Below are positions 3,975 through 59,342 of a stretch of DNA of 64,000 nucleotides, in pieces. The notes beneath the pieces are model-generated. The model was not told the DNA's origin. It saw only the letters and a list, made by a program, of their open reading frames with translations, and did no database searches. The stretch comes from Phascolomyces articulosus (Eukaryota > Mucoromycota > Mucoromycetes > Mucorales > Lichtheimiaceae): NCBI GenBank assembly GCA_025677815.1, contig JAIXMP010000019.1, positions 434,001 to 498,000 on the forward strand, read 5' to 3'. A program made the position numbers and the translations under genes. Numbering within the stretch: position 1 is the first letter of the stretch; every line of letters starts with the position of its first letter.

Positions 3975-5821
3975 TCATGAAGTAGAAGAACAACTGGATT
4001 TTGGAGAAGAAATTGAAGTAGGTGAAGTAATTGTTGTGGTAGTTGAAGTAGAAGAAGGTAAAGAAGTTGGTTGGCAACAGTAAACATTCTTGAACCATTC
4101 ATGTTGCATGATTTGAGGTACATTGATCCGTTTATTCGGATTAGGATCCAACATCCGATAAATTAATCGTTTAGCACCCAATTCCAATCCTTCAAAGATA
4201 TCAATACCAGATTCTTTGGCACGTCTTCGAACAGATTCTCTTGCTTTATGAATGGATAATTCACGTTCTTGTTCAGCACTCAATCCTCTTGTTGTATTTC
4301 CATTATTTTGCTTTTTGGCAGCAGCAGCCAACAATCGCTCTCGTTTGGCATTTTCACGTTCTTCTTCCACAAATCGACGGAACTTCAAGTATCGATCATA
4401 GTTATCATCTTCACCCTTTTTAGCCACTTGCCATATATGATTGCCTGTACGCATGGCCATGTAAATGACAGCACAACTCCATACATCTGATAGTTGAGGA
4501 TCATATTCTTGATGGGTGTTAAACATTTCGGGAGCAATATAAGGTTCAGATCCACATATACCACGACTATACATGAGTTTGGATTGAGGGGTAGGACGGA
4601 AACAATCGGCTCCTCCGAAATCAGAAATCTTGAGACAACCTTGGGAAGTCAAGAGTAAATTTTCCGGCTTCAAGTCCCTGTGTGCAATCCCCATCCCATG
4701 CATATAATGAACACCTCGCATCAATTGTTTGAAGAAACAGTTGGCTTCTTGCACTTGTAAACCAGACGAAGCAAAATCGTATATCAAATTAAACAAGTCA
4801 CCACCATCACAATATTCCATTACTTGACAATAGACGGGTGAAGTTTCAGTCAATGGTAACAAGTCGAGGGTTTCAATGACATTGGGATGATGTAAAATGG
4901 ATGAAATACAGAATTCTGATGTTAATCGTTTGACATATTGTTTTGTTGATTCCAAACCCTTTTTACGAAACTCCTATAATAAATTCGATATGTGTTAGTA
5001 TTCGGGTAAAAAAATAACCCTTTTTCATCATTTTTGACAGATGAACATGAGATAAAAAAAAAAAAAAAGAAAAGATAGATAGCTACCTTGACAGCGTATT
5101 CGTTACCGGAAGGATCTGGTTTATGTACTATACGAACGACACCAAAGGCTCCTTTTCCAATCACTTCATGACATGTGCCCCATTTATCTGATAAACAAAC
5201 GTCATTATTGCCTGGTGCGCGTTTCAGTTCTGCATTCACTGCAGCACGCTCCTTTTGTACTGCTTCTGAAGTTGTTGTCTTTTTATCGGTCGTTACGACA
5301 CCTCCTTTGACCAAGGGTATTTTTAATCCTTTCATTGCAGCTCCTCCCAATCCAGCCGCCAGATTTTGTAATGAAGCAGATATTTTGTTGGGTGGCATAC
5401 ATTTAATACAATGTTGATGCGTCATACCATCTGGATTTAATACAAAGCGTGGTTGATTATTATGTTGATTAGGTTGGGTATGAGATTGTATACGTCCAGC
5501 AGTTGAAATGGTATGGATCGATTGACTTGTATTGGTAGAAGAACAGGAAGAAGATGTTCTGGATACATTATTATTATTATTATTATTATTATCGTTGGCT
5601 GTTGTTGTAGTAGTTGTTGTTGTTCTTGCATTGGTTGGTAGTGAATTTACATTACGAAAAGGCTTTTCATCTAATATAGGTGATGCTGGTTCAGATGGAG
5701 GTGTAGGTGGACCCTTGACGATACCATTATTTCCTTTTTCACCCGTTCTACTTTGTTGATGTTTCTTTTGTTGTTGTTGATAATGTTCTTTGGGATGGAG
5801 AACAGCACGAAAAATCCCCAT
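3975..5821 (-). CDS. Ser/Thr protein kinase, Hal4/Sat4-like
   Basis: Protein kinase resembling the fungal Npr1/Hal5/Sat4 group, which controls the stability of plasma-membrane transporters; that role is family knowledge. Two exons (5087-5821 and 3975-4973) give 577 aa. The first about 200 residues are disordered and rich in Gln/Asn/Thr, including an Asn run encoded by an ATT-type repeat. The kinase domain begins at about residue 220: GKGAFGVVRIV (glycine loop), EYAVK (catalytic Lys, at the splice junction), HRDLKPENLL (catalytic loop), DFGGAD and APE. All catalytic residues are present. The C-terminal tail is Ser/Thr-rich. I chose the ATG at 5821 (MGIFRAV); an in-frame ATG at 5833 is possible. 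The intron is 4974-5086. Confidence 0.88.
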
Positions 5822-42509: not shown

Positions 42510-44708
42510 CTATAATAAAAACAAATTTTCATAATACGTTAAACCTGAGGGTCCTTCGTCTCGACATATGAGACCTTTTTGTTCAGTAATCTTGATATAT
42601 AAAAAAAAAAGAGAGTGAAAGTGACAAAAAAAACGTGTTAGTGGTTGATGTCGCTGTTGTTTTTTGGAGATAGAAGATGATATATAAAAAAAAAAAGACA
42701 ACCCATATATTATTTACCAAAAGTTGTTCTGTGGCTAAAGCCAAAGCCAGGTTTTCTATTTCTGCTAATCGTAACGCAGTGATATGACCACCTTGTTGTT
42801 TGACATGTTGTAAAATTCTTCTTGCAGCTCTGTCGTCATCCATATATTGTGATTGGACGACAAGTAATCCACTCGGAAATTTCCGTAGTCGGAAAGGAAG
42901 TTTTAATTCTTCAAATTGTTGTGCTGCCTTGTATAAATCCTCAGGCGAAATCAGTGCTAAGATAAATAATATGTATATTAAATAAACGTTGTCTTCTTTT
43001 TATCATCATGAACCAGATAGATACATGTAAATAGATAGTACTTACCAACACCACGCACACGATTAAAAATACAATATAAGTCTGTAAGTGACTTCATACT
43101 ATCTTGTTCATTCAAAATTTTGCTTAAAAATTCTGCCAATTCTCTTGCTAATTCTTGATGATAAATAGAACCAGCCGAGCCACTAAATAAAAAACAACAT
43201 TAATCCCCACCCCAAGGTTATTTCCTACATCTAGTTGGCTTATATGTATCCAGGTATATATGTTCATTTGGCTGGTTGGTTGGTTAGGGGGAAACAAACT
43301 ATTCAAGCTTACCGTGTTACTGGGTCAGATATACCCAGATTTAAAAGGTATGTACGAAGGGTGGATAAATTCCCATCCGTATTATTGGTATCCTTGTTTA
43401 TTTTTTGAGAAATGGATTCTGCTAATGTCACCATCTCTGTCGCTTTTGCCATCAATCGATCCAAGTCTTGGAACGCATCCGTCATTGTCTCACTTGCTTC
43501 TGCTGAATTTTTTTCGATTCTATCCTGGATAGCACCTATAAAATCAAGCGAATCAATATTACATTCTCTTTCCCTGCTTATTCTCCAACTCTTCAATCTC
43601 TTTTTTAACTTACTAATACCAACACCGCGCGTCTTGGATGTTGATGGTCTTTCAACAGGGGACTCTATTGGCTATTTTTTTTTTAAAAAAAACACCCTCC
43701 ATTTAATAAATGATATTCTATTTTATTCTGAATCTTCTCCCATAGAATCACGATATAACTCTTCATCCTTTTAATTTACCTTATCCCATGCTTTAGCATC
43801 CAATGCTCCTTTCAATTTACTCAAAAACCCAGACTGTCCTCCATGACGAAACGCTAATCGAATATGAGCATCGTCATCCACATGAATAGCCGTAAATGAT
43901 TCAGATAAACTAGGTGTGGATACTGTAGGAGACGGTGCAACACCTGATGATAAATCCGTACCACACATCTCACATTGTACCATACTTGGATGATTAATAA
44001 AAGTACATGCACCACACGATACACCATCATTATTCTCTTTTTGACTAGCAGTTGTAGTAGGTGTTGTTGGTGAACTTGTACTATTATTTGCTATATCATC
44101 TGAACGTTTGACTCCGCACAATTGACATTTCTCCAATGTTCGTGCGTTTGCAAAAGAACAGATGGGACATACCCAGGTTGATACAGCTAATTGTGGTAAA
44201 CTTTTTCGAACAGGACTCGTTACCGTGTTTTCCAAATGCAAAATTATTTTGGGTGATGCTCGTAGAAACCCACCCTGCTTGTTATTATAAAATTCGTATG
44301 ATCAATATAGATATATAGGTCGTTACTGTTGAAAAAAAAGGAAGTGAAACTTACATAACTCTCAGCTTCTTTAACATTACAAAGTGATAATTCAACAGCT
44401 CTCTCAGCAGGTTGTGCACTATCTACATAAATGATGCGATGGGATGTTAAATAACATACACCGTCTTGGTAATCGTCGATTTTGCTCTTGCTAAAAAAAA
44501 AAAAAGACACGTTAAGAAAGAAAATGTTGGATATTGGATGAATCAGCAAAGAATTCCTTTCCCACAAAGAATAAAGGCAAATTATAACATTGTTTCTTCT
44601 TTACCGTTCATAAAGGCCAACATTGCCTTGTTGAATAATAAGTGATTCATTCGATTGTAGTACTGGTCGTCGTGAAGAAGATAAATCGGTCCGCTCAAAG
44701 TACTTCAT
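42510..44708 (-). CDS. VPS36: ESCRT-II subunit Vps36
   Basis: ESCRT-II component that links ubiquitinated cargo and phosphoinositides on endosomes to ESCRT-III. Eight exons (44605-44708, 44355-44490, 43780-44277, 43614-43671, 43313-43535, 43046-43182, 42718-42956, 42510-42590) give 491 aa. The GLUE domain starts at once (SNESLIIQQGNVGLYE, GVCYLTSHRIIYVDS). Two NZF zinc fingers are inserted: WVCPICSFANARTLEKCQLC near residue 117 and CGACTFINHPSMVQCEMC near 168, the arrangement known from yeast Vps36. A Ser/Thr-rich linker follows, then the EAP30 winged-helix region (AIQDRIEKN..., RGVALISPEDLYKAA, VVQSQYMDDDRAAR). All exon joins keep frame. Confidence 0.93.
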
Positions 44709-44987: not shown

Positions 44988-47900
44988 TCATGATGATGAT
45001 GGAAATACATCGAAACCTTGAAGGACTTGTATAAGGCTAAGAGCAGTAAAAATGAGTACAAGGGAAACATACACAAAATGAGGAGAGTTGTTTGTCATTT
45101 TATCCAGTACCATTTCAAAGGGGTTTGGATTAACAACTCGATTAAATTTACTATCCAAGTACTTTAAAAGATCAATAGTCTCTTTACTAAGATCAACTGT
45201 ACCGTTATCATTCTCGTATTCCTTTGCACGCTCTTGTATAATTTCGCGATGCCACCATGCCCAACTGATACGTAGGTTCACAGGAATGATGTTTGCCTTT
45301 ACAGCAATCTCAAATGATTGTCGATCCGGTATTAGTTTAGAAATTTTGATGATGTGATCGACATAATATTCCATCAACTGTTTCATTGCTTCTGAACCAA
45401 CCCATACATTATAGGGTTTGCGTTTTACTGAGTAGAAATCAATGAGTCGTATATCAAGCAATGAGATTGTTTGCATTTCTACGGTTTTATCTCCTACCGA
45501 GACTCTTACACCTTGGATTAAATCTTTCCTAGGTGCCACTCCTTGGATTGAAAATCCTTTTCGATCGAAAAAATATAATGATGGTATATTTTTTTCACTT
45601 ATATTCCATTCACGCAGCTCTTCCTTGTTCATGTCTGGGAGCTTGAGTACCCAACCAGGGCGTAAACGGCCGTTAAAATCACCGATAAATAATTCCAAGA
45701 GTTCAGAAAAATATTCTATCTTTTTTGGTTCCTGGCAGTCCATATAAAACATGCGTACTGCATGCAACATATCCAACAAAATTTCGTAATAGCCAAATAC
45801 ATCGAAATTAAAATTGGTTGCTGTGCTTATTAGATCGATGATTGGTACTTCTAATATATCTTTTTTAAATTCGTAATTAATGTCACCAAAGACTGGTGGT
45901 TTCCTGTATGTCATCCGTCCCATAATGTCACTTCGCTTCGTTATAGATATACGAGTTCTTCCGTCTATCTTCTTGTTCTTGTTTTTTTGTTGCTCATTGC
46001 ATGTAACTTGTGTAGACCGTAAAGAATTATTGATTGCTAGTACTATAGCTGTTATTATTGCAATTACTACAGCTATCAAAATTGCTGCTGCTGTTGTTGT
46101 TGTTGTTGCCCTTGTTGTTCTTATTGCTGCTGCAATCACCGACACTGTTCCGGTTACTGTTGATAGTATTGTCCTTTTTTTTATTGCTACATCTTTGAGG
46201 GCACCTGATGAATCCCTGTGAAGCAAATATCTAATATTTAATCTGGTGGCTTGATCAACTATTTTGTTGTAATCGTCTATTCTTTGCCGAAGAAATAATT
46301 CTGTATGGTTTTCTTGAGTTTGGCCGTCAAGGAGCACAAGCGAATGATTATAAAGCAATTCACTGCGAGACAAATCCAAACCTGGGTGAAAAAATGCGAT
46401 AGCAACTGTAATAGTATAAGCATTATATCCATGAATGCTCGAGGATGCAGCGATTAATTCCAAACAGGAAAAATGATTCCCTAAATATTTCAATTGGTTG
46501 TACGTTTGTTCACCAATTTCAGGATGCAAAAATTTCTGAATGAGATCGCTATAATGATTGCGGCTTGCTAGAATGTTTTTCTGCCACCAATTCCAATCAA
46601 GTGATATTAATGGCGGAAGTATTTTATTGGATACGGCAATGTCAAATGAGGGTTCATCCGGAATTAGAAAACCAAGAATGTGCATGAAATCGCAAAAATA
46701 ACCTTGAATTTCGGTACCACGATGCTGATCTTTGGAATACTGCTTAAATAATTCAGAATTACGAAACGCTTCAAAATTACGATAATTATAGCGTAAATCA
46801 AGTGCATTGATGGCAAGTATATTAGCTTGTTTTTCACCAGTATGAGAAATAAAAAGGCTGCAGAATGTAGGTCCTGCAATGGTGGCGTTAATATCATCAT
46901 CACGCTCATAAGTTTCCTTATTATGAGCGGGAATTCCTTTGAAGGAGAATCCAGCTTTAGCAAGAATATCAAGAGAAGGGACTCGGAATGATCTTGTTGA
47001 TATAATCATGGGGTGTGAAACTTTTTCCTTTGTTGAAGCTTGATCATTTCTGTCAGTTTTTAACCAGAAATCCGATGGTATTCTTCCATAAAAACTACCG
47101 AATAGCTCTGGTATTGCGCAATTTGCAAGATAAGCATGTAGTCGTTGCGCTGGAACTATTGCTTCTTTTGTAGTGATACGACTGAGTTGGTCGAGAAATG
47201 CTTGACATATCAAAAGTGGTGGGGTAGGGAACATGGTTCCTTCCGAATAAAATAGTTCGATCAGTGGAAATATGCAGTATCTTAACTCGTGGTTGCTCAT
47301 ATGAAATAAATGCCGTTTACTGGTAAATATAGATTCAAACTGTGATGAATTGGTATTATTATCCGTGTTTCGTACTGTTTGTATTAGTTCATGAAAAACT
47401 GTCGTCATATGATATAAAATACTGTTGTTGTTGTTGTTGTTGTAATATAATTGAGTAGTGGGATTATCCAAGTTGTTATTATCGTTAGAGTAATCATTGT
47501 TGTAGTGGAACAAACAATCGGACGGTAATCCTTTTGAATAATCTTCACTGCTGTGATACTCGTATCGAGAAACAACACATTCCCAAGTAAATACCATTTG
47601 TGCTTGAGCACTTTTGCAGATTTTTTCAAATGACTGGGAGCATGCAACTGCATTATCCCAACTTTCAATGTTTGGATAAAGAAATCTGATGTATGCCGCC
47701 TCTTCTTTGGTGCATTTTTTAAGTAAAGCAATTGTTTCCATACAATTTTTGCGATCTTGATACAGGTTTTTGATTGCTTGCATTTGACAAGCTATACTTT
47801 TTCCAGGAACATAAAACTTCAATTCTTGTGTGTAAAATATGCCATTCGCTATAATGTTATTTTTCCACCATTCCCAGTCTATGCCTAAATTAGACACCAA

Positions 47901-50005
47901 ACCAATGTCAACGGCAATCTGAAAAGATTCATGGTCAGGCACCAGATAGTATAAAATAGTCACTGTATCAGCATAGTACCCTTCGATCCATCCAATTGGA
48001 AAATAGGGTATTGGCCCATCGCGAAAATTCTTGTAACTATAGCGTATATCTATCAATGATAGCTGAGTAATACGGATTACACCCTTATCTTTTTTTGAAT
48101 AAGGTACTATCTGTATTGCTCGTTGGTTGACAGAAATAGCGCTGTGCATATTATATGTAACCTCACCATTGTCGGTAATATACCGATTTGATGATCTTGA
48201 ATTACACGACTGTAGAGGGATATCACACTTTCGCAAATCAGAGAGAGAAGGAAATGAATCTCTAATTAGTTGACTGTAACTTGTTTTATCCGCCAAACCC
48301 TGAATAAAGTCGTCATGATTCCTACGGTGATCATTGAAACGTAAATAGTCGAACACCTGATACTGCATGATTAAACGGCTATAGTTTATATGGTGGAAGC
48401 ATCCAACAATTATATCAAATAAGATACAAAGTATGTATACAAAGGAAAACCCTTTAAAATCTTCCGTTAAAACAATGCGTTCGTTTACAAAGTGTTTAAG
48501 AACAACAAAAAATCGCTCCAAGTAATCTGTACGGTATTGCTGTTGTTCAAAATACCAGAGAGCATGTTGTAGTAAAGGATCCTGAGAATATTCTGATAGG
48601 TTTCCTTTAAAACGCAGCTTCTGTTCAGTTTGTTGTTGAGAAATTTTGGTATTACTGAGGGTGTTATAAACCAGTGTTATCAAATCCTGGAGAGCTTCTT
48701 CATTTTTTTTGTTAATGTCGTTACTGTTATCTGTATGTGGTATCGATGATCCATCTTCTTGACTATTGATATTCTCGTGTGTTGATAATCCATCCCCCTG
48801 GCTGTTGCTATTCATGTGTTCTGATGGGCTATTTTCACAACTGTTGCTATTCGCCTGTGTTTGCAATAATATGTTTTCTTGACTGTTGGTAGCCTCTGGC
48901 GTATCAGGGGCACCATTATAAAGTGTATAGGCCACTCGAATAAGTCCTTTTTGTTCCTTTTTAAGTCGATGCAGTTCCTTGATTCTGTGATCAACAAAAC
49001 GTTCTGCTGCCCGATTAAGGTTCGTATCGTCATCAAGCTCGTCCTCGAGATAGGTAATCAAGCTGACAGAATCAAGAATATCTGGCCGATAAAGTAGATT
49101 CGGATGAAAAATCCCAATGGCTAGAATAGCTTCTTTTTTAAGGTCTTGATCGTCGATATGGATAATATGGCTTAGAATGGCCTTTGCATGTTTACATTCC
49201 ACTTCATCGACACTGATAAATGTTGTAATTGTTAAAAAAAGTTATTTGTTTATTGTGCTTTCTGTAAAAAATGTAAATATAACACATACCTAATGCCCTC
49301 AAGAAATATTTGTGGCTGGCACTGTAAAAGAGGCGGTGGGGGACTTCTTCCTCCATCTTCTTGTGTGGTGTCTGTAGCTGAAGTGTTACTATATACCATC
49401 AAAATAGAGAAATATTAGTATTTAATTAAAAATTCGAAACACAAAACCAAGTTTCAATTAGAATATAGCACTACCTGGTGTTGGAAGAAGGAGAAGCCTC
49501 AGCTTGCTGCTGCTGTTGTTGTAAAACATTGACATCGTCAACATCATTGCCAGTACTATAATTATTAAGGGAAATAGACAAACGCCACCTTCAGTTATAA
49601 AAATACAGAGGTGTATAGATTTTTTAAATGCAACATATATACCTCGATCTAGGAAAAATATTATTTGGACGCTCATCAAGTGGAATATTTATAAAAACAT
49701 CACTACAAATGATAAACGTACGTACAGTTAATAAGATGACTTCCGACTGTCTTGCTCTAGTGGCCACACTTCAGCAATTAGATTATTATAACCTATCACC
49801 GTTATTTCATACCCTTCATGGTTGTTCTGGGAATCATTAACAATATCATTACCATCTCTATAAAAAAAATACAATCATAAATGGGTAATGTTATAGAGCT
49901 ATCACAATGTTATATCATAACATACGTTTCAGTATCTGATGTACTATACTGATTATAGCCGCTTCGATTTTCTGGATTATTATCTTCGAAATTATTACTC
50001 AACAT
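44988..50005 (-). CDS. Giant protein with three copies of an unknown module (about 1,550 aa), unrecognised
   Basis: Function unknown. Five small exons (49926-50005, about 49741-49857, 49643-49702, 49475-49555, 49290-49388) lead into one intronless 4.2 kb exon (44988-49212). All five introns are phase 2. The exon 2/3 border is uncertain: a gtcatc donor gives a 38-nt intron, and a gtggcc donor at 49767 gives 65 nt, for 1,553 or 1,544 aa. The N-terminal part is acidic and Gln/Asn-rich. The main body has three diverged modules (separate entries) with the pattern LDIRY, GYY.D...IL..L.PD..SF.IAV, then W.WW...II. Hydrophobic segments occur near 48450-48390 (FVYILCILFDIIVGCF), 46110-46030 (Ala/Ile/Val-rich) and at the extreme C-terminus (FVYVSLVLIFTALSLI), suggesting a membrane or tail-anchored protein. 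No catalytic motif is recognised. Confidence 0.8.
45108..45710 (-). repeat. Module 3 of the giant protein
   Basis: Preceded by LLELFIGDFNGRLRPGWVLK. The core reads IPSLYFFDRKGFSIQGVAP, ISLLDIRLIDF, YYVDHIIKISKLIPDRQSF, EIAV and ISWAWWHREII. Confidence 0.7.
46518..47135 (-). repeat. Module 2 of the giant protein
   Basis: Preceded by IPELFGSFYGRIPSDFWLK. The core reads VPSLDILAKAGFSFKGIPA, INALDLRYNYRNF, GYFCDFMHILGFLIPDEPSF, DIAV and LDWNWWQKNILA. Confidence 0.7.
47763..48251 (-). repeat. Module 1 of the giant protein
   Basis: Begins FPSLSDLRKCDIPLQ. The core reads LSLIDIRYSYKNF, GYYADTVTILYYLVPDHESF, QIAV and IDWEWWKNNIIA. Confidence 0.65.
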
Positions 50006-52770: not shown

Positions 52771-54029
52771 TTATTGTTTTAATACTTCATCTCCAAACAA
52801 TGCTGCTGCTGCTTGAGCAACAACAGCTTGTGCGGCGGCCTGCGCAGCAGCATAATTCATGGCAAGGATAGCATCAATAGCAGCTAAAATATCTGCTTCC
52901 CACCAACCCATTTCATAATCTACTAATCCATAACGTTCTAATTTATCAGCCCAAGCAACCACCATTTCTCGTAATCCGTATAAATGTTGATCCGTTAGTC
53001 GTTCGATTTCTGAGCTTGGTTCATGACGTTGTGCTAATGCATATAACCAACAATTATTAAGGCCTGCCCAAAACTGTTCACGATCAATAGCATTATATGG
53101 ATGATCGTCCGATGTTAATCCTAAAACAGTAAAGATGAAAAAAGTGTACCATTTTTGTTTGTATATATGAATATTCCATTTTGCTTCCATGGTATTTAGA
53201 TTCAAAAAATCCCCCAAAAAGGTACCATACCTAATTGTTCACAGTGATCTACAACAGCACTTGTTGCTTTACTGAGGGTTTGAAATCCACTGACCATATT
53301 TCGTTGTTCAACGTGATCTAAGGTTGCTTTTAATTGCTTTTGTATTTCTTCAAAACTGGTAGTGGATGTAGGGGGTGGTGGTTGTAAAGTGGCGGTAGGG
53401 GTAACTGTCGTGGTCGCTGCTGTTTCTGTGGCAACAGGTGCAGCAACTACTGGTGTCGGTGTAGGTGCTGGGGTAGTTGCTGCTATTGTTGTTGTTGTTG
53501 TTGTTGTTGCCGCTGCTGTGGTGGTGGCCGTAGATACTGTTGTCGCTACAGGTTGCACTGGTTGTTGTTGTACTGACTGTACAGGTGCTGGAGTTACAAT
53601 AGGTTCTTGTTCAACGTTTTGTTCTTCTGTTTTAACAATGATTTCGGTATTATTGGCAATGGGTTCTGTTTTTACGGTAGATTCTATTTCCATTGGAGTA
53701 GGGGTAGTACTGGTAGTATTGGTGGCTTCTGTAGTAGGAGTAGAGGTAACCGTAGGAGTTGTATTATTTGTTATGGGGATCGTCGCAGTAGTACTAGTTG
53801 CATCGGAAGTCATTGCTGTTGTTGCTGGAGTTGTTGGTGAGGCTGCTGTAGTTGATTCTGCTGTATTATTATTGTTATTAGGTTCTATTTTAACTGTTGC
53901 AGTTTCTACTGTAGGTGAAGACGACGTTTCAAAATCAGTCATGCTTGTATTTTCATCTAAACTACTCAATGGGCTACTTGACGTGACTGATTGAAGTGAA
54001 GGAGAATTCCCATTATTATTAGCTTGCAT
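52771..54029 (-). CDS. Ser/Thr-rich protein with a conserved-looking helical C-terminus (382 aa)
   Basis: Two exons (53231-54029 and 52771-53120) join in frame. The first about 210 residues are low complexity, rich in Thr, Pro, Ala and Val, with many TTT and TPTP runs. From about residue 225 the sequence becomes folded-looking: FEEIQKQLKATLDHVEQRN, then DREQFWAGLNNCWLYALAQ, LREMVVAWADKLERYGLVDY and EMGWWEADILAAID. It ends with an Ala/Gln-rich helix (YAAAQAAAQAVVAQAAAALF). I recall a similar YGLVDYQMG..EEEI pattern in uncharacterised fungal proteins but cannot name the family. The intron is 53121-53230. Confidence 0.75.
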
Positions 54030-57000: not shown

Positions 57001-57410
57001 ATTTTACCTTAATATCTAGTTTTTTTTTTCTTTTCTCTGTAAATCCCGCCTCATCTTTTTATTGTTACTTTTAATAGTAACTTTTCTTCCTTATTATTTA
57101 TATGATTATATCCCGAATAACCCTCATTGCTGGAACTGGATTCCGTACTGCCGGCTATTATTAAAATAAGAAGAACCTAGCATATATCCATTCAAGTTTA
57201 TCCAATAGCAAAGAAAGACATTTATATATACTTAAATAATAAATCTGTGTCATATTTATATCGACAATTCTTTCAATTGGTATGTTGCTTTAGTTGTTTA
57301 TACATAGAGAAACTATATGATTACTCTTATTGGAGAGTAGTATAAAAATACAACGTATGATGGTAACTGTAGAAATTTCGATTATTATATTTTATCTAGG
57401 ACAGAGAAAC
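54030..57410. other. 3.4 kb gene-free region upstream of the second HET gene
   Basis: Very AT-rich. No ORF with coding character was found and no repeat family recognised. A tttatctag acceptor-like sequence lies 12 bp before the HET ATG, so a 5' UTR intron is possible. Confidence 0.5.
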
Positions 57411-59342
57411 ATGGGATACATCACATATGACCGTCAACAGTGGCGTGTTGAAAATGCTTATACCAATGACTTATCAGGACCTTACAAGCGACCACCTATT
57501 CGATATTTTCCCAGATCAGCAAGCGGGCCACCATTAAATAGTAACCGGCAAGAAGATGGAAAAGAAGGGGGAGATCATCCTGATTCATATTTACCTTTCC
57601 GACCGAATCTACTTGTCAGGATAGAAGATATGAAAGTTGTTAATGGAGCAGATGTGGATGATGATTATTGTGCATTGTCCTACTCTTGGAATCAATCAGG
57701 GGATTTGGTCAAGAAACGAGACTTGGTAAAAGATGGCAATGATGGCTGGACTAATAAGACTACTTGTGCTTCTGGTACCTCCCAAGAATATCAAGGAAAT
57801 GATGACGATGAATATGTTCGAAGCGATCAAGGTAAACACACTATTGTTGACTTTCCAGCTAAAAAAGTCAGAACCAAGATAAGACCTAGAGGGCGACGAA
57901 GATCAAGTTTACCACCTACCACTCGGCTGGTCAAATTTGAAGGTCTCATTCAACAAATCTGTTTAGATTTTGGTGTCCGTTATATTTGGTATGATCAGAT
58001 GTGTATTGATCAGAACGATCCAGATCAAAAGAGAATCGAAATAAAACAAATGCATCGCATTTATAATAATGCATTATTTTCTATCGTACTGGTTCCGGAA
58101 TTACGAGTCACTCGATGTCAAGATGATTGTGGTGAATATACATATCGATGCAACAGTGATGCTGGTATCAATACTGAATGGTGTCGAAGGGCGTGGACAT
58201 TAGAAGAAATGGCAATGTCTCGCCTCATGTTGTACGTAGCACGTAATACGCACATGTGGAGTGATACTGTGGATGCCAGTATCGTCAAGCTTTCATATCA
58301 TCATCATTATTATTTTAGTGTTTGTGCACGTTCCTTGAAATGGGCGGCTTGTACAGCCCTTTATCATGCACATCGACGGTTGAGTACCAAACCACATGAT
58401 CGTATTTTTTCACTGGCCAATATTTTCCCAGACATCATCAATCAAATTATCTTTAGTTATAATCAGCCGATCCACAAATTAATGATGCAGTTTTATAGTG
58501 CTCTCATCAAGAATGATATTCGTATTTTGTTGTTTGGTACAGATTATGCTTCGCCTGCACCCAGCAGAAGCAAGAACAAGGACGGTATATCTACGAAAAA
58601 TGAAGGGGGAGGAGGAATGAGTATTCGAGATCAGTATGCTGCCGAATTGCCCTCCTGGGTTGGTATGAAAGCAACCCACATGCCTCAACTTGCATTGGAT
58701 GATTTATCCCCAGTGTCATCCACTCCATTCAACAATTATAGGACATATGACCATTCACTTGTATTAAAATGCCGTTGTGTTTCTGTTTCTTTACTCAAAG
58801 ATCTCCAAGAAGGAGGAGCAGTGGGTCTTTATCCACAAAGTGAAACTATTGGCCAACAACATTATTTTTCTTCTTCAACTTATTCACAACAACAGCAACC
58901 AATTACCGCAACAAATTCCAGGTCGTCCTTGAAATTTGTACCGGCTCCGAATCAAAAACCAATATCACCTCTCGACAATAGTTTTAAGAATCTGTCTTAT
59001 TCTGGATACTACGGTTTACGAGTAACACATCGACTTCCAGTAAGACTGATCAAAACACGCTCTTGTTGTAGTAGTCATATACCTTTACCTGATAATGATA
59101 TTTATGCGGGCTATATGTCATTAACAGCAGAAGATCTTGATGATCAACAAGATGAAAACTCTACATCAACAACGTTAACGATTCTTTCCGAACTTGCCTT
59201 TACTACTGTATTTTCTGATTTAGTTGTTATGCCAGTAGTTCTCAAAAAAGGGCAGCATTATAAAAGTATCGGCGTTTGCTTTATGCATAAATGTATTGAT
59301 CTGGAAAATCTGGGGATAGTTGAAGAGTTCGAAATTCAGTAA
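57411..59342 (+). CDS. HET-domain (heterokaryon incompatibility-like) protein, intact paralogue
   Basis: Paralogue of the gene at the window start, 643 aa, intronless. I chose the ATG at 57411 because the product then begins MGYITYDRQQW, as in the paralogue; in-frame ATGs at 57357 and 57360 would add up to 18 residues. HET motifs are CALSYSW near residue 88, YIWYDQMCIDQND near 190, MHRIYNNA, and WCRRAWTLEE near 257. The shared KPHDRIFSLANIFPDI block follows. The C-terminal half (about 300 residues) is less conserved, Ser/Gln-rich in places, and ends GVCFMHKCIDLENLGIVEEF, again parallel to the first copy. It has no recognisable NACHT, kinase or WD40 partner domain. It lies alone in an 8 kb gene-poor block. 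Confidence 0.85.
   Translation: MGYITYDRQQWRVENAYTNDLSGPYKRPPIRYFPRSASGPPLNSNRQEDGKEGGDHPDSYLPFRPNLLVRIEDMKVVNGADVDDDYCALSYSWNQSGDLVKKRDLVKDGNDGWTNKTTCASGTSQEYQGNDDDEYVRSDQGKHTIVDFPAKKVRTKIRPRGRRRSSLPPTTRLVKFEGLIQQICLDFGVRYIWYDQMCIDQNDPDQKRIEIKQMHRIYNNALFSIVLVPELRVTRCQDDCGEYTYRCNSDAGINTEWCRRAWTLEEMAMSRLMLYVARNTHMWSDTVDASIVKLSYHHHYYFSVCARSLKWAACTALYHAHRRLSTKPHDRIFSLANIFPDIINQIIFSYNQPIHKLMMQFYSALIKNDIRILLFGTDYASPAPSRSKNKDGISTKNEGGGGMSIRDQYAAELPSWVGMKATHMPQLALDDLSPVSSTPFNNYRTYDHSLVLKCRCVSVSLLKDLQEGGAVGLYPQSETIGQQHYFSSSTYSQQQQPITATNSRSSLKFVPAPNQKPISPLDNSFKNLSYSGYYGLRVTHRLPVRLIKTRSCCSSHIPLPDNDIYAGYMSLTAEDLDDQQDENSTSTTLTILSELAFTTVFSDLVVMPVVLKKGQHYKSIGVCFMHKCIDLENLGIVEEFEIQ

Follow-up and report, generated by a model that had tools for sequence, protein, structure and literature searches.

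Proteins of the fungal DUF6601 family (PF20246) combine C-terminal membrane segments with a motif similar to that of the protein considered here, and CorA magnesium transporters carry a GMN motif at their C-terminal pore. These described systems serve as points of comparison for a large gene of Phascolomyces articulosus, located on the minus strand of contig JAIXMP010000019.1 within a stretch of 64,000 nucleotides (positions 434,001 to 498,000; hereafter the window). The protein encoded by this gene consists of three copies of a single uncatalogued module of about 430-475 residues, each copy longer than the segments seen in an initial annotation of the window, and the module recurs, as far as found, only in fungi of the Lichtheimiaceae and in three unnamed sequences.

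The repeated module and its reading frame

A single reading frame on the minus strand, uninterrupted for 1,404 codons (44988-49202; residue 1 is the GTG at 49202), carries all three modules and measures 1,417 codons from stop to stop. At the given base composition, a stop-free run of 1,404 codons would arise by chance with a probability of about 2e-44. The gene and its modules, with the evidence for each in brackets, are as follows.

44988..50005, minus strand: whole gene as drawn in the initial annotation, exons upstream of 49212 provisional (open frame, ATG at 50005, candidate GT/AG sites)
44988..49212, minus strand: final, large coding exon with residues 1-1404, preceded by some three codons that follow the CAG acceptor at 49213 (open frame, acceptor site)
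47712..49130, minus strand: module 1, residues 25-497 (profile match, alignment, shuffle test, profile-profile comparison)
46419..47711, minus strand: module 2, residues 498-928 (profile match, alignment, shuffle test, profile-profile comparison)
44991..46418, minus strand: module 3, residues 929-1404, the sole module with the probable C-terminal anchor (profile match, alignment, shuffle test, profile-profile comparison)

That three segments repeat one pattern, as first proposed from the sequence, is confirmed by several comparisons. Local alignment scores of 180 for modules 1 and 2, 112 for modules 1 and 3 and 149 for modules 2 and 3 stand well above the maxima of 66, 63 and 63 reached by shuffled sequences of the same composition, none of the 500 shuffles for any pair matching the observed score. 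An independent profile, built from nine single-module proteins with the window protein excluded, recovers modules 1, 2 and 3 at 34.3, 26.2 and 91.4 bits. Profile-profile comparison of the window modules, using two-row profiles, gives E-values of 4e-17 (modules 1 and 2), 6e-10 (modules 1 and 3) and 1e-12 (modules 2 and 3), and comparison with the single-module family gives 7e-24 for module 3, 1e-12 for module 2 and 4e-11 for module 1, the last over 73 columns only.

Each module contains the same blocks in the same order: an (F/L)-x-P start, a variable stretch of mostly low complexity, a helical region, the G-x-F block, PSL or PTL, LD-x-R (IDIR in module 1), Y-x-x-D, L-x-P-x-x-x-S and a WW pair. 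The later blocks make up a core that is conserved by alignment in all three copies.

47850..48257, minus strand: module 1 core, residues 316-451 (FPSL ... LIDIRY ... GYYAD ... VPDHESFQIAV ... DWEWWKNNII)
46566..46982, minus strand: module 2 core, residues 741-879 (VPSL ... LDLRY ... GYFCD ... IPDEPSFDIAV ... DWNWWQKNIL), containing the sub-threshold DUF6601 stretch discussed below
45237..45587, minus strand: module 3 core, residues 1206-1322 (IPSL ... LLDIRL ... YYVD ... IPDRQSFEIAV ... SWAWWHREII)

The repeat unit seems to extend upstream as far as the (F/L)-x-P block, which reads FHPN at residues 32-35, LYPN at 508-511 and FHPG at 938-941, and whose proline is invariant in 12 of 13 alignment rows, that is, in every row with a letter at that column. 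The starts of modules 1 and 3 are joined by a collinear but weak profile-profile alignment, the second one for this pair (E 0.0045, probability 7.7%). In the comparisons that involve module 2, none of these alignments extends to its start, the first aligned residue of that module being 91 or 203, and the start is placed by the multiple alignment alone. An upstream block had at first been assigned to modules 2 and 3 only; this restriction does not hold, because module 1 has a counterpart at residues 263-277, DIIVGCFHHINYSRL, that aligns to PELFGSFYGRI and ELFIGDFNGRL.

The total length of about 1,550 residues given in the initial annotation stands for about 1,410 of them, the remainder coming from candidate 5' exons only. 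Upstream of the acceptor at 49213, short open stretches with GT/AG borders follow one another as far as the ATG at 50005, and on these splice sites and open stretches the exons leading up to that ATG are plausible candidates. The N-terminus of the Circinella minor orthologue described below is also divergent.

Relatives in Lichtheimiaceae and the history of the triplication

In the 47.4 Mb searched, the P. articulosus genome holds four genes of the family: the window gene and one each on contigs C32, C39 and C35. A protein search with the C32 protein returned nine single-module proteins, the query included, of which two are from P. articulosus (P0001 and P0005), one each from Circinella minor, Zychaea mexicana, Fennellomyces sp. 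T-0311 and Dichotomocladium elegans, and three from unnamed sequences. The six species-assigned proteins are annotated as 'hypothetical protein', and all five genera with species-assigned members (Phascolomyces, Circinella, Zychaea, Fennellomyces and Dichotomocladium) are classed in the Lichtheimiaceae (Mucorales). A profile search with 12 aligned rows (alignment A2), at E-values up to 1, recovered the same nine proteins and nothing further.

These single-module proteins (P0001-P0009) share with the window protein the G-x-F block, the core of LD-x-R, P-x-x-x-S-F-x-x-A and WW, and a hydrophobic tail. The start block, as F-x-P, is found in eight of the nine, the exception, P0005, being a gene model that starts later. 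They differ in having one copy of the module and a length of 390-597 residues, and the two that were compared, P0001 and P0009, are 28-40% identical to the window modules in local alignments.

Only the window and C. minor yielded the long, three-module form, a second match (P0010) being a piece of the window protein itself. The Circinella protein, INT45_008318 (P0011; 1,355 residues), has three modules in the window order and one tail, and differs from the window protein in lacking about 57 residues that include most of its middle hydrophobic run. Orthologous modules are 46-49% identical, and the whole window protein is 39% identical to its orthologue over 71% of the query. Such fast divergence, together with a triplet-repeat insertion in module 3, would suit a gene-model artefact, whereby three adjacent single-module genes are read through, or a pseudogene in decay. 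Against this stand the stop-free frame of 1,404 codons, the retained core residues and the recurrence of the three modules, their order unchanged, in an independent genome, and we regard artefact or decay as very improbable.

Because this three-module arrangement is shared with C. minor, the triplication within one reading frame is older than the separation of Phascolomyces and Circinella. In a tree of the cores, the three window modules each group with the corresponding Circinella module (supports 98-100). The deep forks of the tree, with 88-89% support and a long-branch warning, split it (89/88) into modules 1 and 2 and a second group of module 3, the C35 paralogue and the single-module proteins. 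The earlier proposal that modules 2 and 3 alone share a longer duplication is not supported by this branching. In the simplest history, module 3 and the tail would continue the ancestral gene, with modules 1 and 2 added in front of it, and the single-module form with a tail is the commoner one and perhaps the ancestral one.

The C-terminal tail, known domains and a possible role

The initial annotation took three hydrophobic segments as a sign of membrane attachment. Hydropathy peaks are indeed found at residues 251-269 (2.31; with an overlapping peak at 243-261), 1039-1057 (3.25) and 1376-1394 (2.37), and the associated features are as follows.

45003..45092, minus strand: residues 1371-1400, a hydrophobic segment conserved at the C-terminus and a probable membrane anchor (hydropathy and alignment)
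48396..48452, minus strand: residues 251-269, a hydrophobic stretch of module 1 that runs up to and into the G-x-F block (hydropathy and alignment)
46038..46208, minus strand: insertion in module 3, approximately residues 999-1055, with most of the hydrophobic run 1039-1057 (DNA 46032-46088) (57-residue gap in the Circinella protein)

Of the three, the C-terminal segment alone is conserved across the family. It is found in all 11 proteins that reach the C-terminus (the window protein, P0001-P0009 and P0011), and it ends in QVLQGF in nine of them and in QMLQGF or QVMQGF in P0002 and P0009. The module 1 stretch has a comparably high counterpart in P0011 (1.96), and no hydropathy peak of 1.4 or more occurs at its place in modules 2 and 3. 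The middle run lies within the insertion, which is partly encoded by CAA/CAG/GCA triplet repeats and whose DNA contains no GT(A/G)NGT donor; the expansion (46032-46208, minus strand) that creates a membrane-like segment in module 3 is probably a chance product. Since the tail is family-wide and the middle run falls within an insertion that Circinella lacks, the arrangement supported is a single predicted C-terminal anchor rather than three passes.

With respect to known domains, no Pfam family exceeds its cut-off for the window protein, its three modules or four paralogue frames, the best E-value over the 12 rows of A2 is 0.043, and neither sequence nor a low-confidence structure model finds a convincing relative in the PDB. 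The initial judgement that the module matches no known domain is thus borne out. TPR_22 (PF18833), with 13.4 and 14.4 bits, stays below its cut-off of 27.2. The CorA GMN motif occurs in none of the 12 proteins, and a CorA-like membrane transporter, or a degenerate relative of one, is disfavoured to the point of being hardly credible. Among titles and abstract openings in the searched literature on DUF6601, Phascolomyces, and Lichtheimiaceae genomes and protein family expansion, none describes this family, and no paper on the P. articulosus genome turned up there.

The claim of a new domain family holds in so far as the family has no catalogue entry and is, on the members found, lineage-restricted; a possible distant relationship to DUF6601 shows only below threshold and is still a lead. 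PF20246 recurs over one core stretch in the window protein (E 0.024), its module 2 core (0.035), P0011 (0.024), the module 2 core of P0011 (0.039) and a consensus of seven cores (0.038), always in one register, over about 50-65 core residues and at profile positions 77-145. The one paper in the searched literature that contains the term DUF6601 (PMC10512319) has a gene table for Curvularia clavata in which a DUF6601 gene, with a stated size of 166, is entered next to an NB-ARC/TPR gene. The modules could on these grounds be distant members of a DUF6601 superfamily that share its role, possibly near fungal recognition of the NOD-like receptor (NLR) type. The scores are nevertheless only 12-15 bits (best 14.8), far under the Pfam gathering cut-off of 27 bits, and they lie at chance level, because four of ten reversed or shuffled decoys gave other Pfam families, none of them DUF6601, at similar or better values (E 0.005-0.2, 12-17 bits). 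Nor are the hits independent, all tracing back to module 2 in a pair of orthologues or to a consensus in which these sequences are included. No DUF6601 match was found in modules 1 and 3 of either long protein, in the paralogue exon from L002 or in the 13-row consensus, and PF20246 matches two of the 12 rows of A2, with a best E-value of 0.11. A search of the P. articulosus genome with PF20246 at E-values up to 10 found no place, although this search also missed the window gene and is therefore less sensitive. The core stretch matches DUF6601 only below threshold and at decoy-level scores, no test applied makes the window family a member, and we consider a shared superfamily and role unlikely, if a serious contender.

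We tentatively favour a different reading, in which the window protein belongs to an undescribed family, found in Lichtheimiaceae and the three unnamed sequences, in which the commoner arrangement, perhaps the ancestral one, is a single module of about 450 residues followed by a hydrophobic C-terminal tail. The single tail would anchor the protein in an internal membrane, the modules are predicted most likely to face the cytosol and to bind a partner there, and the three diverged copies in the window protein, triplicated before Phascolomyces and Circinella separated, may form a multivalent or multi-partner tether that is probably not an enzyme. A tail-anchored binding module, single or multivalent, is suggested by the one conserved tail, by modules that have diverged while keeping their core, by the occurrence of the module either once or three times per protein, and by the absence of histidine, cysteine or glutamate from the 17 columns that are invariant or miss one row in the 13-row alignment. 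The anatomical half of this reading, namely the triplication, the open frame, the relatives and the conserved tail, is held with high confidence; taken whole, as a lineage-restricted, probably non-enzymatic tether, the reading is somewhat doubtful. Several points weigh against it. The same 17 columns include three aspartates, one arginine, one serine and one tyrosine, so that a catalytic role is possible, the predicted structures are poor (mean predicted local distance difference test, pLDDT, 44.7 and 52.8), and the C-terminal segment could form a hairpin or two short passes. A more specific proposal, that the module is a Mucorales-specific new fold for recognition, its core of a helix and three strands closed by the WW helix, occurring singly on the small tail-anchored proteins and in triplicate on the large one, where one anchor presents three diverged sites, is decidedly unlikely.

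The family is an uncatalogued one for which the 12-row alignment A2 could serve as the basis of a Pfam entry, and it traces 'hypothetical proteins' from five Lichtheimiaceae genera to one origin. Should the module of this putative tether bind a partner, the presence of both the single- and the triple-copy form in the same genome would provide a natural test of multivalency; otherwise the family is one among many lineage-restricted fungal families, filling a modest but real gap in the domain catalogue.

Other features of the window

Adjoining the gene, a frame at 43774-44241 (minus strand) encodes zinc fingers, Vps36 NZF-like and RanBP2-like, that fall slightly short of the Pfam cut-offs, and is possibly part of the ESCRT-II subunit Vps36. 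A protein kinase domain is found at 3978-4955 (minus strand; E 1.3e-45).

Two genes with a HET domain (PF06985) are located at 639-2156 and 57330-59339, both on the plus strand, and at least 150 HET places in the genome stand over the cut-off (150 of 245 candidates scored; places, not genes). Podospora anserina, with 125 HET loci, is cited as an example of high numbers in a review (PMC10197012), and by this comparison the HET complement of this Mucorales genome looks expanded too.

A low-complexity, threonine-rich frame at 53362-53994 (plus strand) is paired with a long open frame rich in valine and alanine on the opposite strand (53202-54029, minus), as triplet bias would produce.
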